A DNA stretch of 6,586 bases from an uncultured Actinomycetes bacterium. Lineage in GTDB: Bacteria; Actinomycetota; Thermoleophilia; Solirubrobacterales; 70-9. The stretch is from NCBI GenBank assembly GCA_946886425.1, contig CAMPIP010000129.1:1-6586 (forward strand), written 5' to 3'. Under the pieces are notes generated by a model. It ran no database searches, had not been told where the DNA came from, and worked only from the letters and a program-made list of their open reading frames with translations. This document shows, one piece after another, positions 1 through 4,600 of the stretch. Position 1 is the first letter of the stretch; each line of letters starts with the position of its first letter. Position numbers and translations under genes: made by a program.

Positions 1-571
1 TAACGGCCCCTGGGTTGGGGCCGCTTGCCGGGGGGGGCTGCACATCGCGTGGGGCGCGACCCCGGGGCCCCCCCGGGCCTCCCCGCCCCACCCCGTGGCC
101 CTTTTCCTCCGCCGCTTTGTAGGCGATCTGGAGGAAGTCGGAGATCGTCAGCGCCGAGAAGACGGCGGCCAGGAAGCGGGTCAGGCGGGGCGCGAAGACG
201 AGGCCGAGCGAGAACGCGGAGACGACCCAGAGGCCCAGGCAGTAAGGGCAGACCAGCAGTTCGCCGACGGCCTTCCGGGCGCCGTCCCCGCGGGCGCTCT
301 CCTCGAACTCGGAGGGGCCGCCGCTTTCCTCGAACTCGGTGAAGGGAGCGCGCAGCGGGCTGGTCACCTTGTCCTTGGAGATCAACCGGCTCAACTTGTG
401 CGAGGCGACCCCGATCGTGATCAGGTCGGCGGCGCCGACGCGCTCCGGCAGCTCTCGCCCCCGCCGGCGGGCGAGCAGCAGGGCCGCGGCGAAGAGGGCG
501 TTGAAGACGGTCCCGATCACCGCGTAGCCGCCGAGCGGCGGTCGTCTCGCGGCTGGCGCGTAGCCCTCCAT
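1..571 (-). CDS. DUF1360 family membrane protein (3' end not in window)
   Basis: The reading frame runs 190 codons from an ATG at 571 to the left edge without a stop. The core matches my memory of the DUF1360 family (Bacillus YjcA-like small membrane proteins of unknown role): SHKLSRL near residue 58, KVTSPLRAPFTE at 68-79, and LLVCPYCLGLW at 105-115, whose CPYC pair could bind metal or form a disulfide. Hydrophobic stretches at about 15-34, 48-64 and 113-150 suggest two to four membrane segments. An acidic insert at 80-96 carries a short internal repeat. After about residue 157 the protein turns into a G/P/R-rich tail read from very GC-rich DNA with runs of 7-8 C or G; this may be a true tail or read-through after a homopolymer indel. 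The start lies 10 bases after the CxxC gene's stop, without a strong Shine-Dalgarno. It is the last operon gene seen. Family call fairly firm, function unknown. Confidence 0.8.
   Translation of the reverse strand, partial: MEGYAPAARRPPLGGYAVIGTVFNALFAAALLLARRRGRELPERVGAADLITIGVASHKLSRLISKDKVTSPLRAPFTEFEESGGPSEFEESARGDGARKAVGELLVCPYCLGLWVVSAFSLGLVFAPRLTRFLAAVFSALTISDFLQIAYKAAEEKGHGVGRGGPGGPRGRAPRDVQPPPASGPNPGAV
4..23 (-). other. Short GC stem-loop in the DUF1360 tail
   Basis: A perfect 7-bp stem (CGGCCCC / GGGGCCG) closes a 6-base loop at the very left edge. It lies inside the open DUF1360 frame. No T-run is visible before the window ends, so a terminator role cannot be judged. It could end the operon if the real DUF1360 stop lies just upstream through a frameshift. 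Confidence 0.3.
300..339. repeat. In-frame direct repeat, 13-bp copies 27 bp apart
   Basis: TCCTCGAACTCGG occurs at 300-312 and again at 327-339. The 27-base period is nine codons, so DUF1360 reads EFEES twice in its acidic insert (residues 79-92). This looks like a small tandem duplication between two hydrophobic regions. The frame is kept. Confidence 0.75.
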
Positions 572-581
572 GACGGTGCGG

Positions 582-1082
582 CTACCCCGGTCGCAGCGCC
601 TCAACCAGCTGGGGGTCGAGCGGCTGGGTGGCGACGACCCGTTCCGGCAGCAGCAGCAGGGCGCCGGTGTCGGCGTCGAGGTCGCGCTCCTCGCTAAGTC
701 GGCCCCGCAGCTCGACCACCATCTTCCCCTCGGCCTCCGCCCCTTTCTCGGCCAGGTACCGGTAGAGGCCCTCGCGGGTGGGAAAGACCGCGATGCCGTG
801 GCGGCGGGTGCGATCGATCTCCCCGCTGCCCTCGCAGGTCGGGCAGGTCGCCTCGAAGCGGACCCGGCCCTGGCAGGCGGGGCAGTCGGGGCGGGCGCCG
901 GTCTGCAGGCAGGAGCGGCATTCGTAGCGAGCGACGCCGCGCCCCCCGCACTTGTCGCAAGGGCCGTGGTCGTGGGAGCCCCAGGGCTCGGTGAACTGCT
1001 TGGCGGGATCGAGCAGCTGCTCGGGATCGGCGTCGGCGGCGCAGGAGTGGAAATAGGACCGGTTGGGGGAGGGCTCGGGCAC
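582..1082 (-). CDS. Protein with four CxxC(x)G zinc-finger repeats, DnaJ-like but without a J domain
   Basis: A 166-residue cytoplasmic protein. Residues 42-87 hold four CxxC knuckles at C42/C45, C55/C58, C67/C70 and C80/C83. The first (CDKCGGRG) and last (CPTCEGSG) match the CxxCxGxG repeat of the DnaJ/Hsp40 cysteine-rich domain; the middle two (CRSCLQTG, CPACQGRV) are looser. Eight cysteines would bind two zinc ions, as in DnaJ. The HPD-bearing J domain and the substrate-binding domain are both absent. The N-terminus has SYFHSCAADADPEQ (one more Cys, C14), and the C-terminal half (92-166) is an unrecognised mixed fold ending ATQPLDPQLVEALRPG. The GTG start lies 2 bases after the PRC gene's TGA, with GAGG 8 bases upstream; longer versions of the frame would run through the PRC gene. 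A redox or folding role is possible but not shown. I do not recognise a named family. Confidence 0.75.
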   Translation of the reverse strand: MPEPSPNRSYFHSCAADADPEQLLDPAKQFTEPWGSHDHGPCDKCGGRGVARYECRSCLQTGARPDCPACQGRVRFEATCPTCEGSGEIDRTRRHGIAVFPTREGLYRYLAEKGAEAEGKMVVELRGRLSEERDLDADTGALLLLPERVVATQPLDPQLVEALRPG

Positions 1083-1084
1083 GC

Positions 1085-1342
1085 TCAGGCCCTCACCACG
1101 ATGCGGCGCTCGTCGATCTCGGCAACCGCGTCCCACGGGATCCCGTGGGCGTCCGGGCCCGGGCCGCGGAGGCGCTGCCAGAGTGCCCGCCGGCCGACCA
1201 GCAGCTCCTCGATGACGACGCCGCCGTCGCGGTCGCGGCGGGCGCGCGCCTCGAAGACCCGTCCCAGCGAGCGGCCGCTCTGGTCGACCACCGGACATCC
1301 GACCAGCGAGCTGAAGGCACCGCGTCCGTCGCTCAGTTCCAC
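1085..1342 (-). CDS. Small PRC-barrel domain protein (second of a tandem pair)
   Basis: An 85-residue soluble protein covering about one PRC-barrel domain: VGCPVVDQSGRSLGRVFEA (14-32), IEELLVGRR (44-52) and GIPWDAVAEID (67-77). The 'D..G..LGRV' strand and the 'IPWD.V.EI' end are the usual PRC-barrel signatures, known from RimM, photosynthetic reaction centre subunit H and many small stress proteins. Such domains usually mediate binding rather than catalysis. The GTG start overlaps the previous gene's stop by 10 bases, so translation is probably coupled, and an AGGAG sits 6 bases upstream. It resembles the adjacent upstream gene and probably arose from it by duplication. The ligand is unknown. 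Confidence 0.8.
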   Translation of the reverse strand: MELSDGRGAFSSLVGCPVVDQSGRSLGRVFEARARRDRDGGVVIEELLVGRRALWQRLRGPGPDAHGIPWDAVAEIDERRIVVRA

Positions 1343-1695
1343 GGCAGGCTCCTGACCAGCCAGCGGTCCGGGTCGTCGCCGTGGCCGAGGCCCAGGTCCT
1401 CGGCCTTGCCGCGCAGATGGATCGCGGCGCCGATCTCGGCGACCTCCTCCCAGGGCACGCGCAGCGCGTTCTGGCCCCAGGTCTCCGGTCCCGCCAGGCG
1501 CCGCGCCAGCCGCCGCAGCCGGCGGCCGGGAAGGCGCCGCGGGTAGAGGGCCTCGCCGACCAGGAGCGCGCTCACCCGCGGTGGGCTGCCGCGCAGCTCG
1601 AGGTCGTCGACGCGCCCGCAGCGGCGCCCATCGCAGTCGAGGATCTGCTCGTCGAGCAGGCGGTGGGCGACGAAGAGCGGCTCGCCGGGATTCAT
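1333..1695 (-). CDS. PRC-barrel domain protein (first of a tandem pair)
   Basis: A 120-residue soluble protein. The PRC-like core covers residues 8-94: LLDEQILDCDGRRCGRVDDLEL (13-34), VSALLVGEA (41-49) and ALRVPWEEVAEIG (77-89), the last being the typical 'PW..V..I' closing strand. Residues 51-68 are very arginine-rich (YPRRLPGRRLRRLARRLA) and could bind acidic lipid, RNA or DNA. A tail of about 25 residues ends GDDPDRWLVRSLPWN. The ATG at 1695 overlaps the NRAMP stop in an ATGA junction. An open frame extends upstream but only through the NRAMP gene, so this start is preferred. A role next to the transporter, such as a cytoplasmic partner, is only a guess. Confidence 0.78.
   Translation of the reverse strand: MNPGEPLFVAHRLLDEQILDCDGRRCGRVDDLELRGSPPRVSALLVGEALYPRRLPGRRLRRLARRLAGPETWGQNALRVPWEEVAEIGAAIHLRGKAEDLGLGHGDDPDRWLVRSLPWN
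1349..1353 (-). promoter_or_regulatory. Shine-Dalgarno deciding the GTG start of the second PRC gene
   Basis: AGGAG on the minus strand, inside the end of the first PRC gene and 6 bases before the GTG at 1342. It supports a start that overlaps the upstream stop codon. Confidence 0.7.
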
Positions 1696-2912
1696 CCGCC
1701 GCCCCCGTTGGTCATCATCAGCAGCGGGATCGCGGCGATCGCGAGGAGGACGATCACGCCGAAGTAGACCCAGCCCAGGGTCGCCGAGATCCGCCCGTTG
1801 GCGTGCTCTCCCATGAACGAGCGGTCGCCGGCGATCAGCAGGATCGGCAGGTAGGTGAGCGGCAGCGCCACCACCGAGAAGACGACGCTGTACTCGGTGA
1901 TCTCGACCGGGTTGATCCCGCTCAACACGATCAGCATCGCCAGGAACAGGAAGACCAGCCAGGAGAAGGTGAAGCGCGGCGCTTTCTTGGGACCGCGGTA
2001 GCGGCCCCACTCCCAGCCGAGGAACTGGGCGAGGTTGTAGGAGGCCGAGAAGCTGGAGTCGATCGCGGCCCCGCCGACGCAGAAGAGGATCCCGGCCAGG
2101 GCGAGCAGCAGCCCGGTCTCGCCGAAGGCCCCCTGGACCGGCAGCGCCACGGTGCCGAGGTCGTTCGGCTGCACCCCGACCGGGTGGAAGAGGAAGCCGG
2201 AGACGACGACCAGGGCGCAGGCGAGGATGCCGCCGAGCCCGTAGCCGATCACGGCGTTGAGCCGGTTCTCTTTGAGGCTCTTCTCGGTCCAGCCCTCCTC
2301 GATCGCCCCCGACGAGTAGAAGTGAACCTCGTAGGGCATCAGCGCCGCCGCGAAGACGCCGACCACGAAGTAGAGGTAGAGCGTCGAGTCGGCGAAGGAG
2401 GGGACGAAGCCCTGGGCGACCTCGCCCCAGTCGGGGCTCTGGTCGATCGCGGTGGCGACGAAGACCAGCATCAGCAGGCCGCCGTAGCCGAACAGCCGCT
2501 CGATGCCGCCGAACGGCAGCAGCGCCACGATCACGACCAGGGAGAGCAGGGCGATGACGACGAAGAGGCTGAAGGGCGCGTCGAAGAGCAGCTGCAGGAT
2601 GATCGCCAAGCCGCCCAGCTCGGCGGCCACGGTCAGCAGGTTGACGAAGGTGCTGGCGATCAGCGCGACCAGCCCGAGCCCGAAGCCCATCCGCATCCGG
2701 ATCGCGTCGAAGACGGGCCGGTTGCTGACCGCCGCCACCCGTCCCGACATCTCCGCGTAGACGGCGATGCCGATCGTCCCCAGCACCACCGCCCAGAGCA
2801 GGTCGTAGCGGTAGAGCGCCCCGGCCTGGGTGTTGAAGACCAGGTCGCCGATGTCGAGGAATCCCCCGATCGCGGCGATGATCCCGAGGGCGATTTTGAA
2901 GATCGTCCTCAC
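1692..2912 (-). CDS. Divergent NRAMP/SLC11-type divalent metal transporter
   Basis: A 406-residue inner-membrane protein with about 11 hydrophobic segments and hardly any N-terminal extension; TM1 begins near residue 5. In NRAMPs, TM1 DPGN and TM6 MPH form the metal site and carry protons. Here TM1 has DIGD (20-23), so the Asp is kept and Asn becomes Asp, and TM6 has A189..MPYE (192-195), so Ala and Met are kept and His becomes Tyr. In TM3 the usual D-I-A-E proton-path pair reads VAAE (95-98): the Glu stays but the Asp is lost. VYAEMSGRVAAVS (51-63) is typical of NRAMP TM2. Metal binding through D20 and M192 is therefore likely, but metal choice and proton coupling may differ from MntH; related NRAMP branches carry Mg or other ions. 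The GTG start overlaps the lipoprotein stop in GTGA and the 3' end overlaps the first PRC gene by 4 bases. Mn/Fe import is the default call, held with caution. Confidence 0.85.
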   Translation of the reverse strand: MRTIFKIALGIIAAIGGFLDIGDLVFNTQAGALYRYDLLWAVVLGTIGIAVYAEMSGRVAAVSNRPVFDAIRMRMGFGLGLVALIASTFVNLLTVAAELGGLAIILQLLFDAPFSLFVVIALLSLVVIVALLPFGGIERLFGYGGLLMLVFVATAIDQSPDWGEVAQGFVPSFADSTLYLYFVVGVFAAALMPYEVHFYSSGAIEEGWTEKSLKENRLNAVIGYGLGGILACALVVVSGFLFHPVGVQPNDLGTVALPVQGAFGETGLLLALAGILFCVGGAAIDSSFSASYNLAQFLGWEWGRYRGPKKAPRFTFSWLVFLFLAMLIVLSGINPVEITEYSVVFSVVALPLTYLPILLIAGDRSFMGEHANGRISATLGWVYFGVIVLLAIAAIPLLMMTNGGGG

Positions 2913-3355
2913 GGCGCTTCCCCGGTGAGCCGGGCGACCACCGCGTCGGCCTGTTCTTTGACTTCGCCCATGTGCTTCTCGACGAGGGCGCCGTGGTGCT
3001 CGTCGCCGGGAAAGGTCCGCAGCTGCGAGAACAGCTCGCCGAGCTCGCCGGCGATCCGCACGGCGGCGTCGCGCTCCTCGCGGACCTCCGCCGAGGGCTC
3101 GGCGTCGGCGAGCTTTTCGGCCTCGTGCTCGGCCTGGCCGCCGAGCGTCTCCGCCATCACCCGCACGTAGGTCGACTTGGTCGCGTCGCGGGCGACGCCG
3201 CTGGCGACGAGTTCGCCCTGCGCGGCCAAGGCGCCGAGGGATTCGACGCCGCGGTTCAGCTCATCGCGGCTGAGGTCGCCGCAGCCGCTCGCGGCGAGGA
3301 GGAGGGCGGCGAGAGCCGCGATCGCGGCCCGCCGCCCGAGGCGCCCACTGCGCAT
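2909..3355 (-). CDS. Small helical lipoprotein upstream of the NRAMP gene
   Basis: A 148-residue protein with an Arg-rich n-region (MRSGRLGRR), a hydrophobic core (11-22) and lipobox AASGC with the lipidated Cys at 25, so the mature protein is predicted to be anchored on the outer face of the cytoplasmic membrane. The rest appears almost wholly helical, rich in Glu/Asp/Ala, with heptad-like stretches (residues 30-112 and 122-144) and an EHH cluster at 119-121 plus H77 and H128. I do not recognise a family. The start is ATG; the gene follows the ferritin-like gene's stop by 30 bases, and its TGA overlaps the NRAMP GTG start. Coupling to a transporter suggests an extracytoplasmic partner, perhaps metal-handling, but no known metal-binding domain is visible. 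Confidence 0.75.
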   Translation of the reverse strand: MRSGRLGRRAAIAALAALLLAASGCGDLSRDELNRGVESLGALAAQGELVASGVARDATKSTYVRVMAETLGGQAEHEAEKLADAEPSAEVREERDAAVRIAGELGELFSQLRTFPGDEHHGALVEKHMGEVKEQADAVVARLTGEAP

Positions 3356-3385: not shown

Positions 3386-3874
3386 CTAGGACTCCTCGTA
3401 GGGGTCTTTCTCCCCGGCCAGCCGCAGCGACCCGTCCTTGGCCTCGCTGAAGTGCCGTTCCTGGATCGGCAGCGCCCACTCGACCAGCTCGGAGATCTGT
3501 TCCTCGCCGGCCTGCTCGTTGAGCTTGCCCAGCACCGCCCAGTGCCCGACCTCGCCGGCCTCCGCCATGGTCAGGAACTCGAAGCCGTCGAGGCCGTCGG
3601 AGTCGCCCCCCAGGTAGGTCGACATCATCTCCGTCGCCTCGCTTTTCGTTTCCTGCGCTTTTTCGAGGATCGCCGTCTTCTTGCCGTCGCGGCTGTCGGC
3701 CAACTCGGTGCAGCGGCGCTCGGTCTCCTCGGCCTCCTCGCGCATCTGCCGCAGCGTCGCGACGATGCTTTCGTCTTCGACGAGGCCCTCGACTTTCTCC
3801 GTCGCTCCCTGTGCCGCCTGGGCCAGGCCCAGCACCTCGGCCAGCTTCTCCTCCAACGTCGTCAGCTCGGCCAT
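3386..3874 (-). CDS. Acidic helical protein, probably ferritin-like four-helix bundle
   Basis: A 162-residue, strongly acidic soluble protein with no signal peptide. Four predicted helices fit a ferritin/rubrerythrin-like bundle: about 5-32, 35-61 (before a DGKK turn), 66-87, and a last half (95-145) holding FEFLTMAEAGEVGHW and LVEWALPIQERHF. E99, E105, E108 and H111, then E132, E139 and H141, could be carboxylate/His metal ligands, but the classic paired ExxH sites are not clean and the first helices lack an obvious ligand. It may therefore be a structural relative or a non-ferritin bundle. The ATG at 3874 has AAGGGGGAAGG just upstream (3878-3888). It is the first gene of the operon and starts 42 bases after the leftward GGGTAC promoter. 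The longer open frame upstream only reads through the control region and the DUF892 gene. Gene call strong, fold call moderate. Confidence 0.75.
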   Translation of the reverse strand: MAELTTLEEKLAEVLGLAQAAQGATEKVEGLVEDESIVATLRQMREEAEETERRCTELADSRDGKKTAILEKAQETKSEATEMMSTYLGGDSDGLDGFEFLTMAEAGEVGHWAVLGKLNEQAGEEQISELVEWALPIQERHFSEAKDGSLRLAGEKDPYEES

Positions 3875-3916
3875 CTGCCTTCCCCCTTCTCGTCGTTTGC
3901 GATGGGCGTCGGTTTC

Positions 3917-3941
3917 GTACCCGCCGGACCGTTCGCGAAAC
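3917..3941 (-). promoter_or_regulatory. Leftward SigB/SigF-type stress promoter for the operon
   Basis: On the minus strand: GTTT (3941-3938), a 15-base spacer and GGGTAC (3922-3917). This agrees with the SigF consensus of mycobacteria (GTTT-N15-17-GGGTA) and the SigB family of Streptomyces and Bacillus. It lies 42 bases before the ATG at 3874, leaving room for a short leader and a good Shine-Dalgarno. No vegetative -35/-10 pair is apparent. An almost identical element faces the other way. Confidence 0.72.
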
Positions 3942-3960
3942 GGGGCGCGGTCGTTTCGCG
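3934..3960. repeat. Perfect 9+9 bp inverted repeat joining the two divergent -35 elements
   Basis: CGCGAAACG (3934-3942) and CGTTTCGCG (3952-3960) are exact reverse complements with a 9-base centre. Each arm contains one promoter's GTTT. Imperfect symmetry continues outward to both GGGTAC boxes (GGAC/GTCC, then GTACCC/GGGTAC with bulges). The symmetry partly follows from two back-to-back copies of the same promoter, but the arms match beyond GTTT, so an operator or a preferred extended -35 is possible. Confidence 0.75.
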
Positions 3961-3978
3961 GTCCGCCGGGCGGGGTAC
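3953..3978 (+). promoter_or_regulatory. Rightward SigB/SigF-type stress promoter for the DUF892 gene
   Basis: GTTT (3953-3956), a 16-base spacer and GGGTAC (3973-3978), matching the SigB/SigF-type consensus. A start site near 3985-3988 would give a leader of about 40 bases before the ATG at 4025. The -35 elements of the two promoters are only 11 bases apart, so both could be read under the same condition or compete for polymerase. Confidence 0.72.
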
Positions 3979-4012
3979 GGCCAACCCGACGTGGAGACGT
4001 GCAGAACGAGCG

Positions 4013-4020
4013 AGGGGAGG
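4013..4020 (+). promoter_or_regulatory. Shine-Dalgarno of the DUF892 gene
   Basis: AGGGGAGG, with four bases (CAGG) before the ATG at 4025. It fixes this start within a much longer open frame that is only the shadow of the leftward genes. Confidence 0.75.
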
Positions 4021-4024
4021 CAGG

Positions 4025-4600
4025 ATGGCGGACTTGAACGAGCGCGACGCGAAGCTGATCCAGTACCTGAGTGAGGCCTACGGCAAGGAGAAGGAACTCG
4101 AGGTCTCGCTGGAGGCGCATATCGCGATGACCACCAGGCCGCCGTACAAGAAACGGCTGAAAGCCCACCTCAAAGAGACCAAGGCGCACGGCAAGACCCT
4201 GGAGCGGCGGATCAAGAAGCTTGGCGGCGGCGGGCAGCTGACCCAGAACTTCGCCGGCAAGGTGAAAGCGGCGGCGAAGGGCCCGCTGCACATGGTCCGC
4301 GGCAGCGGCGAGCAGGAGAAGATGCTGAAGAACGCCAAGACCGAGTACTGGAACGAGCATGAGGAGATAGCCACCTACCTGGCGATCGAGTCCCTCGCCG
4401 AAAAGGTCGGCGATACCGAGACGGCGAAGCTGGCGCGGGGGATCCGCCGCGAGGAGGAGCGGATGGCGAAATTCCTCGCCGGCCAGATCAAGACCCTGAG
4501 CGGTGCGGTGGCGAGCGAAGAGGTCCCGGCGGCGCAGCGGCGGCCGCCGAAAGCTAAAGCCAGACGTGCTCGAAAACCAGCTTCCCGCTCGCGTAGTTGA
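4025..4600 (+). CDS. DUF892/YciE-type ferritin-like protein with a basic C-terminal tail
   Basis: A 191-residue cytoplasmic protein. Residues 7-160 follow the DUF892 pattern (E. coli YciE/YciF, ferritin-like dimers induced by stress): helix LIQYLSEAYGKEKELE (11-26), RLKAHLKETKAHGKTLERRIKKLG (44-67, with the family's HL.ET at 48-52), EYWNEHEEIATYLAIESLAEKVGD (107-130, with the E-H..I..Y core) and IRREEERMAKFLAGQI (140-155). Glu/His ligands of a possible di-metal site are E51 and H55, E107/E111/H112, and the 143-145 Glu cluster. DUF892 proteins are linked to stress, but their reaction is not settled. The last 20 residues (172-191) are Arg/Lys/Pro/Ser-rich, like the DNA-binding tails of some Dps proteins, and could bind nucleic acid. 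It is transcribed alone from the rightward promoter. Its 3' end overlaps the convergent phosphoesterase gene by 47 bases. Confidence 0.87.
   Translation: MADLNERDAKLIQYLSEAYGKEKELEVSLEAHIAMTTRPPYKKRLKAHLKETKAHGKTLERRIKKLGGGGQLTQNFAGKVKAAAKGPLHMVRGSGEQEKMLKNAKTEYWNEHEEIATYLAIESLAEKVGDTETAKLARGIRREEERMAKFLAGQIKTLSGAVASEEVPAAQRRPPKAKARRARKPASRSRS

Follow-up and report, generated by a model that had tools for sequence, protein, structure and literature searches.

How is transcription directed from a short intergenic region that separates a rightward DUF892 gene from a leftward run of seven genes? This question is raised by the window considered here, the whole stretch of thermoleophilian DNA that was analysed, from an uncultured soil actinobacterium (6586 bases; all coordinates below are positions in it). 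According to the original prediction, 62 bases (3917–3978) hold two SigB/SigF-type promoters placed back to back between two helical stress genes. Thermoleophilia are abundant in soil and little studied by genetics. Among the matches listed in a search of the open-access literature (subscription papers lay outside it), none dealt with a SigB/SigF regulon of this class. Related genomes (G) and loci (L) are cited by number where they have to be told apart.

The Predicted Promoter Pair in the Window

By direct reading, a leftward site with a spacer of 15 bases and a rightward site with a spacer of 16 point away from each other, their GTTT boxes being 11 bases apart (Table 1). From GGGTAC to the ATG there are 42 bases on the minus strand (ATG at 3874) and 46 bases on the plus strand (ATG at 4025). 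These features had been described exactly to the base. Each site combines GTTT with GGGTA(C/T), a spacer within 14 to 17 bases and a nearby start codon on the same strand, the features taken here to define a SigB/SigF-type site. The pattern GTTTN{14,17}GGGTA occurs exactly twice in the 6586 bases, both times in the promoter pair, and 0 times in 200 dinucleotide-preserving shuffles of the window, which agrees with the earlier view that two such matches are unlikely by chance. At positions 3800–4100 a consensus scan gave no sigma-70 sites, and no terminators were found there.

Comparable boxes are known from characterised promoters. SigF promoters of M. smegmatis are given as GTTT-N(14-19)-GGGTA and as GGWWT-N16-17-GGGTAY in excerpts of PMC4694148 and PMC7693655, respectively, and resemble the GTTT-N15/16-GGGTA boxes of the window. 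The excerpted part of PMC8346170 tabulates S. coelicolor promoters of SigB homologues together with their start sites; the -35 box GTTTCG and the -10 box GGGTAC, as in Streptomyces SCO3167p (GTTTCG...GGGTAC), are like those of the window. The S. coelicolor system differs in having nine sigma homologues with overlapping recognition, in the genes concerned and in belonging to another actinobacterial class. SigB of B. subtilis, as quoted in the same excerpt of PMC8346170, likewise uses similar boxes (GTTTAA and GGGA/TAA/T) in the general stress response, but its hexamer spacer is N12-14 (14-16 counted from GTTT), and the phylum is a different one.

A GTT-N15-GGGTA match is also present on the minus strand at 583–605, about 11 bases before a possible start of the DUF1360 gene (571) and within the end of the preceding gene. 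It may be a weaker, internal SigB/SigF-type promoter.

Table 1. Features of the window (leftward genes are numbered from the promoter pair outward).
Feature	Position	Strand	Basis
DUF1360 protein; leftward gene 7, leaves the window	2..571	-	PF07098
Weak DnaJ CXXCXGXG match; leftward gene 6	582..1091	-	21.2 bits, below cut-off 32.7
PRC-barrel protein, 85 aa; leftward gene 5	1085..1342	-	PF05239, 22.5 bits, cut-off 21.2
120-aa protein; leftward gene 4	1333..1695	-	No Pfam match
NRAMP-type metal transporter; leftward gene 3	1692..2912	-	PF01566; order kept in L001
148-aa protein, lipoprotein-like start; leftward gene 2	2909..3355	-	No Pfam match; order kept in L001
162-aa protein, predicted ferritin-like bundle; leftward gene 1	3386..3874	-	Pfam (no match), structure prediction
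Likely ribosome-binding site GGGGGAAGG of leftward gene 1	3878..3886	-	Inference from sequence
-10 box GGGTAC, leftward promoter	3917..3922	-	Direct reading; GGGTA part at -90..-20 in 19/35 related loci
-35 box GTTT, leftward promoter, spacer 15	3938..3941	-	Direct reading, shuffle test, relatives
11-base gap separating the two GTTT boxes	3942..3952		Gaps of other pairs: 5-30
Imperfect inverted repeat built by both promoters	3920..3974		Arms 3920-3942 / 3952-3974, 78%
-35 box GTTT, rightward promoter, spacer 16	3953..3956	+	Direct reading, shuffle test, DUF892 relatives
-10 box GGGTAC, rightward promoter	3973..3978	+	Direct reading; GGGTA part in 14/20 DUF892 upstream regions
Likely ribosome-binding site GAGGGGAGG of DUF892 gene	4012..4020	+	Inference from sequence
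DUF892 (YciE/YciF-type ferritin-like) protein, 191 aa	4025..4600	+	PF05974; stop 4598-4600

Genes on Either Side of the Pair

The genes read leftward had been regarded as one seven-gene operon. Their spacing fits (gaps or overlaps of at most 30 bases), while the order could be followed for the first three genes, in one relative (L001). The seventh gene extends past the window edge. The starts of the DUF1360 gene (604 or 571) and of leftward gene 6 (1091 or 1082) are uncertain and depend on the gene call used.

The description of both promoter-proximal genes as helical stress genes can be sharpened, since both products are ferritin-like: the DUF892 protein by Pfam and PDB sequence matches and the 162-aa protein by predicted structure. 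The DUF892 protein scores 56.3 bits with PF05974 (gathering cut-off 23.7) and matches the PDB sequences 3hiu and 3ogh, the latter being YciE; it belongs with the YciE/YciF ferritin-like stress proteins and matches a solved member of them. Queries consisted of its first 189 residues (4025–4591), two residues and the stop codon short of the gene end. The 162-aa protein is predicted to form a ferritin-like helical bundle, with the same predicted fold as DUF892/YciE, yet it has no Pfam match, and its profile, searched against PDB sequences, found just two matches, at E 0.064 and 0.33, both too weak to convince. At least 7999 relatives of this protein exist. Residues E13, E105, E108, H111, Q138 and H141 are invariant in an alignment of 33 sequences of the family and are, geometry aside, candidates for the di-metal ligand set (E, ExxH pairs) of ferritin-like proteins. 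Both promoter-linked proteins are probably metal-storing or protective.

A 162-aa protein with 62% identity is found in L019, a record titled Burkholderiales; the family otherwise occurs in actinobacterial records, and L019 is probably a mislabelled or mixed bin.

Beyond the DUF892 gene, a convergent metallophosphoesterase gene shares 47 bases with it at the 3' ends (4554–4600), and the start of this phosphoesterase (5036) is divergent from that of a LigD-like ligase (5054), 17 bases away. In L002 (4483–5486), the 162-aa gene is immediately preceded by a phosphoesterase gene of the same orientation. Compared with L002, the DUF892 gene and both promoters stand between phosphoesterase and 162-aa gene of the window as if inserted.

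Conservation of the Sites in Related Genomes

The proposed check of conservation was carried out separately for each gene, and GGGTA proved to be retained far above shuffles and reversed controls on both sides. Scanning genomes with the 162-aa protein as query yielded 36 loci, 35 of which were used (L036, with five upstream bases, was left out). In 19 of these 35 upstream regions GGGTA is present in the sense direction at -90..-20, compared with 2 in the antisense direction, a mean of 1.06 in shuffles (maximum 5) and 1 for the reversed pattern ATGGG. The strict pattern GTTT.{14,17}GGGTA is found in 6/35 and GTT.{15,18}GGGTA in 11/35 (shuffles 0.01 and 0.02, respectively). The remaining 16 regions, which lack GGGTA in the tested range, all belong to proteins of at most 65% identity.

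In the family of G002, relatives of the DUF892 protein (E 1e-20) were found in 20 of 50 genomes. GGGTA occurs at -90..-20 in 14 of their 20 upstream regions (antisense 2; shuffles 0.68, maximum 4; reversed control 0) and is absent from this range in six. Strict GTTT.{14,17}GGGTA sites are present in 6/20, and GTT.{15,18}GGGTA in 10/20 (shuffles 0.01 for the latter). In relatives, GGGTA mostly ends at -30..-60 from the start codon.

A DUF892 gene divergently upstream of the 162-aa gene was found in none of the 36 loci, of which L010, L012, L021, L022, L025 and L036 hold fewer than 717 upstream bases. The two genes as a conserved divergent pair are rejected, this arrangement being absent from the relative loci. 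L017 (27%) and L025 (35%) did give weak DUF892-like tblastn matches, located on the downstream side of the 162-aa gene. Since the two genes stand apart in relatives, each promoter belongs with its own gene, and the window therefore joins two otherwise separate units. Two loci, L004 and L007, show a second strict site beside that of the 162-aa gene, divergent from it and directed at a different gene (ligase-like in L007).

Spacer length was surveyed in 86 loci (480,595 bases) that had been selected through their proteins, independently of the motif. GTTT-N-GGGTA spacers of 15, 16 and 17 bases were found 36, 17 and 9 times, respectively; these counts include orthologues and so are not independent events. 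Every other length from 8 to 24 occurred at most once, as did any length in the reversed control. Widening of the spacer to 12-20 in 16 genomes gave a small excess (425 vs 335 control sites among the matches listed).

The Candidate Sigma Factor

Sigma proteins encoded by G003 (262.3 bits) and G008 (244.5) pass the cut-off of the NCBIfam SigBFG model (234.35); that of G006, cut by a contig end, stays below it (202.7). Of 50 genomes in the family of G002, 35 contain matches to the G003 protein (E 1e-30), the relative G001 among them, and 14 of the 50 have two to four, which bears on the original suggestion that one sigma factor serves both sides. The motif GTTTN{15,16}GGGTA was compared with its reversed pattern in the same genomes. 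Its excess is confined to those with a sigma match: 351 vs 163 control sites (29 genomes above the control, 5 below, 1 equal; Wilcoxon 1.2e-5), as against 65 vs 69 in the 15 genomes without one (6 above, 6 below; p 0.81). The difference between the two groups has p = 0.0004, kinship ignored. The sigma-match genomes below the control are G067, G280, G278, G004 and G254, and the equal one is G300. Genomes lacking a match average 2.15 Mb, compared with 2.88 Mb for the others, and may be incomplete; incompleteness and common ancestry could both exaggerate the tie between sigma factor and motif.

Sites are also frequent beside the sigma gene itself. GTTT.{14,17}GGGTA is present in 25 of 30 sigma loci fetched from the 35 genomes (2.6–3.8 kb each; reversed control 0/30) and in all 14 of the closest ones (L116–L129). 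By position, in 12 of these 14 (not L127 and L129) a site precedes the sigma-adjacent gene and faces a divergent gene. In G002 this adjacent gene and its divergent partner are RsbW/SpoIIAB-like and STAS. The anti-sigma-like protein scores 66.9 bits (spIIAB) and 61.2 bits (RsbW), below the equivalog cut-offs, and the STAS anti-anti-sigma protein passes TIGR00377 (72.9 bits vs 53.45). Such sites could provide feedback on the regulators. Back-to-back sites separate a HAD-type hydrolase from a SigB/F-like sigma gene in L083, L110 and L113, which suggests that the sigma gene could be autoregulated in some genomes.

Clustering of Sites

Motif sites (N{15,16}) were mapped in eight relative genomes and proved to be bunched in five of them. 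Compared with 20,000 random placements, with interval sizes taken post hoc from the observed clusters, the bunching was matched once in G005 (4/8 sites within 7.5 kb) and never in G002 (8/19 within about 31 kb), G003 (8/19 within about 29 kb), G006 (6/15 within 4.7 kb) or G008 (5/19 within 9.2 kb). G001, G004 and G007 have at most two sites per contig. The stretches of the five genomes, chosen by their sites, contain 42 sites with spacers N14-17, of which 30 lie at most 200 bases upstream of a same-strand start and 3 are intragenic; the reversed control gave 0 sites there.

The order of genes in these islands, called by a simple script and not curated (it missed the DUF892 gene of the window), is by eye common to G002 and G003. 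RsbW-like, STAS and DJ-1/PfpI families are found in G002, and in G003 the sigma factor, ferritin, a DUF892-domain protein, haem-oxygenase-like, MEDS-HATPase, topoisomerase IB and carbonic anhydrase. The 162-aa gene and a DUF892 relative are present as well, about 19 kb (G002) and 17 kb (G003) apart, and this DUF892 relative has its own site 45 (G002) and 40 (G003) bases before its start. A longer DUF892-domain protein is encoded just downstream of the 162-aa gene and convergent to it in G003 (L070, 8177–9127), and by likeness in G002. Ligase/Ku-like end-joining genes (Ku by eye) are found near the 162-aa gene and motif sites in G005 (L073) and G006 (L074), hinting that DNA repair may fall within the SigB-type regulon.

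This clustering has a precedent, as far as excerpts of PMC4694148 go, in the run of SigF-dependent genes around sigF in M. smegmatis (about MSMEG_1768-1804), which contains type I topoisomerase, RsbW and sigF; the G002/G003 island, with topoisomerase IB, RsbW-like and SigBFG genes, resembles it. The two differ in that the SigF regulon of M. smegmatis, according to the same excerpts, was measured with a sigF mutant, whereas the promoters of the window were read from sequence; in those excerpts on the regulon no counterpart of the 162-aa ferritin-like and DUF892 genes is noted. A large part of the SigB-type regulon of Solirubrobacterales and closely related groups may be gathered, together with the sigma factor and its likely partner-switch regulators, in one chromosomal island of about 30–45 kb, rich in ferritin-like, DNA repair and redox genes and composed mostly of singly or doubly promoted units resembling that of the window, with the 162-aa family as a new lineage-specific branch of stress ferritins. 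We regard this proposal as a serious but still tentative possibility.

Back-to-Back Pairs and Alternative Explanations

When 299 genomes of the class were searched twice, back-to-back sites turned up at 13 and at 9 distinct places, 19 in all, in 13 genomes; the control gave one genome per search. This recurrence could mean that the two promoters of the window form one obligate bidirectional unit, in which the 11-base gap is selected for phasing, mutual exclusion or a shared activator. In favour of it, 17 of the 19 pairs overlap no called gene (L082 lies inside a large reading frame and L111 overlaps a weak call), 11 have gaps of 5–13, and a gap of 11 recurs in the window, G003 and G008 (10 in G002). 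Over all 19 pairs, however, the GTTT boxes are 22, 25, 6, 25, 6, 10, 10, 9, 16, 7, 9, 30, 13, 8, 15, 26, 11, 5 and 25 bases apart, and pairs with alike genes (named by eye from protein starts, except the sigma genes of G008 and G260) differ: 9, 8 and 11 in the three HAD-type hydrolase/sigma-like pairs, 16 and 13 in the two thiamine-enzyme-like/ferritin-like ones. The 11-base gap is thus not fixed, although back-to-back placement is recurrent. A rough gene caller places nine pairs between outward-pointing genes (L076, L077, L081, L083, L084, L088, L110, L113 and L114), which together with the range of gaps weakens a fixed 11-base architecture. Both genes of the window have single promoters elsewhere, short gaps may merely reflect compact intergenic DNA, and an obligate unit is considered unlikely. 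Because the -35 boxes are so near to each other, two polymerases could probably not occupy the pair at once, judging by polymerase footprint sizes.

The symmetry of the region also allows it to be read as an operator bound by a dimeric regulator, whether repressor or activator, with the box matches as a by-product of its half-sites. The promoter arms resemble each other beyond the boxes, being 78% complementary over 23 nt (3920–3942 and 3952–3974), and CGCGAAACG/CGTTTCGCG within the pair form a perfect 9-base inverted repeat with 9 bases between. Mirrored flanks of this kind are, however, absent from the other pairs, which have different flanks at gaps of 5–30, and from most single sites, and on this ground the operator was rejected. 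In most relatives the site faces a gene and no mirrored strict copy accompanies it (L004 and L007 being the exceptions), the 15–17 spacer peak is that expected of a sigma factor, and no Pfam family matched in the window is a DNA-binding regulator (3 of its 10 proteins are without a match), so that this explanation appears very improbable. Chance matches in a G+C-rich intergenic region, with the true promoters elsewhere, could be suspected of boxes so short and degenerate, given a sizeable genome-wide background (163 control hits in 35 genomes). The empty shuffles, the conservation in relatives and the lack of any sigma-70-like site at 3800–4100 speak against it, and we give it almost no credence.

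Proposed Regulation and Its Meaning

The reading as two separate SigB/SigF-type promoters, placed back to back and each serving its own gene, is held with high confidence. It draws on the identity of boxes and spacers with characterised promoters, on their placement and their conservation ahead of each gene, on the spacer peak, and on the sigma tie and the sites near sigma genes in relatives; start sites, sigma dependence, stress induction and protein functions are inferred, as follows. Under stress, a SigB/F-family sigma factor would be released by its anti-sigma factor through partner switching and would direct RNA polymerase to both promoters. Leftward transcription would yield the 162-aa ferritin-like protein, then the lipoprotein-like protein, the NRAMP metal transporter, the PRC-barrel protein and others; rightward transcription would yield the DUF892 ferritin-like protein. 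This response would probably serve to handle metals and to protect the cell during desiccation or in stationary phase.

Promoters of this kind are already well known, and as an instance of a familiar type of switch the pair is sound but rather ordinary. The analysis adds a motif for this lineage and ties it to a sigma factor; it also adds the island setting and the predicted ferritin-like identity of the 162-aa protein. For Thermoleophilia it offers GTTT-N15-17-GGGTA as a testable motif, along with a candidate sigma factor and a list of targets, and it places an uncharacterised, widespread protein among the ferritin-like stress proteins. If the island reading is true, the metal-sequestering, DNA-protecting response could be reshuffled, transferred or lost in separate blocks.
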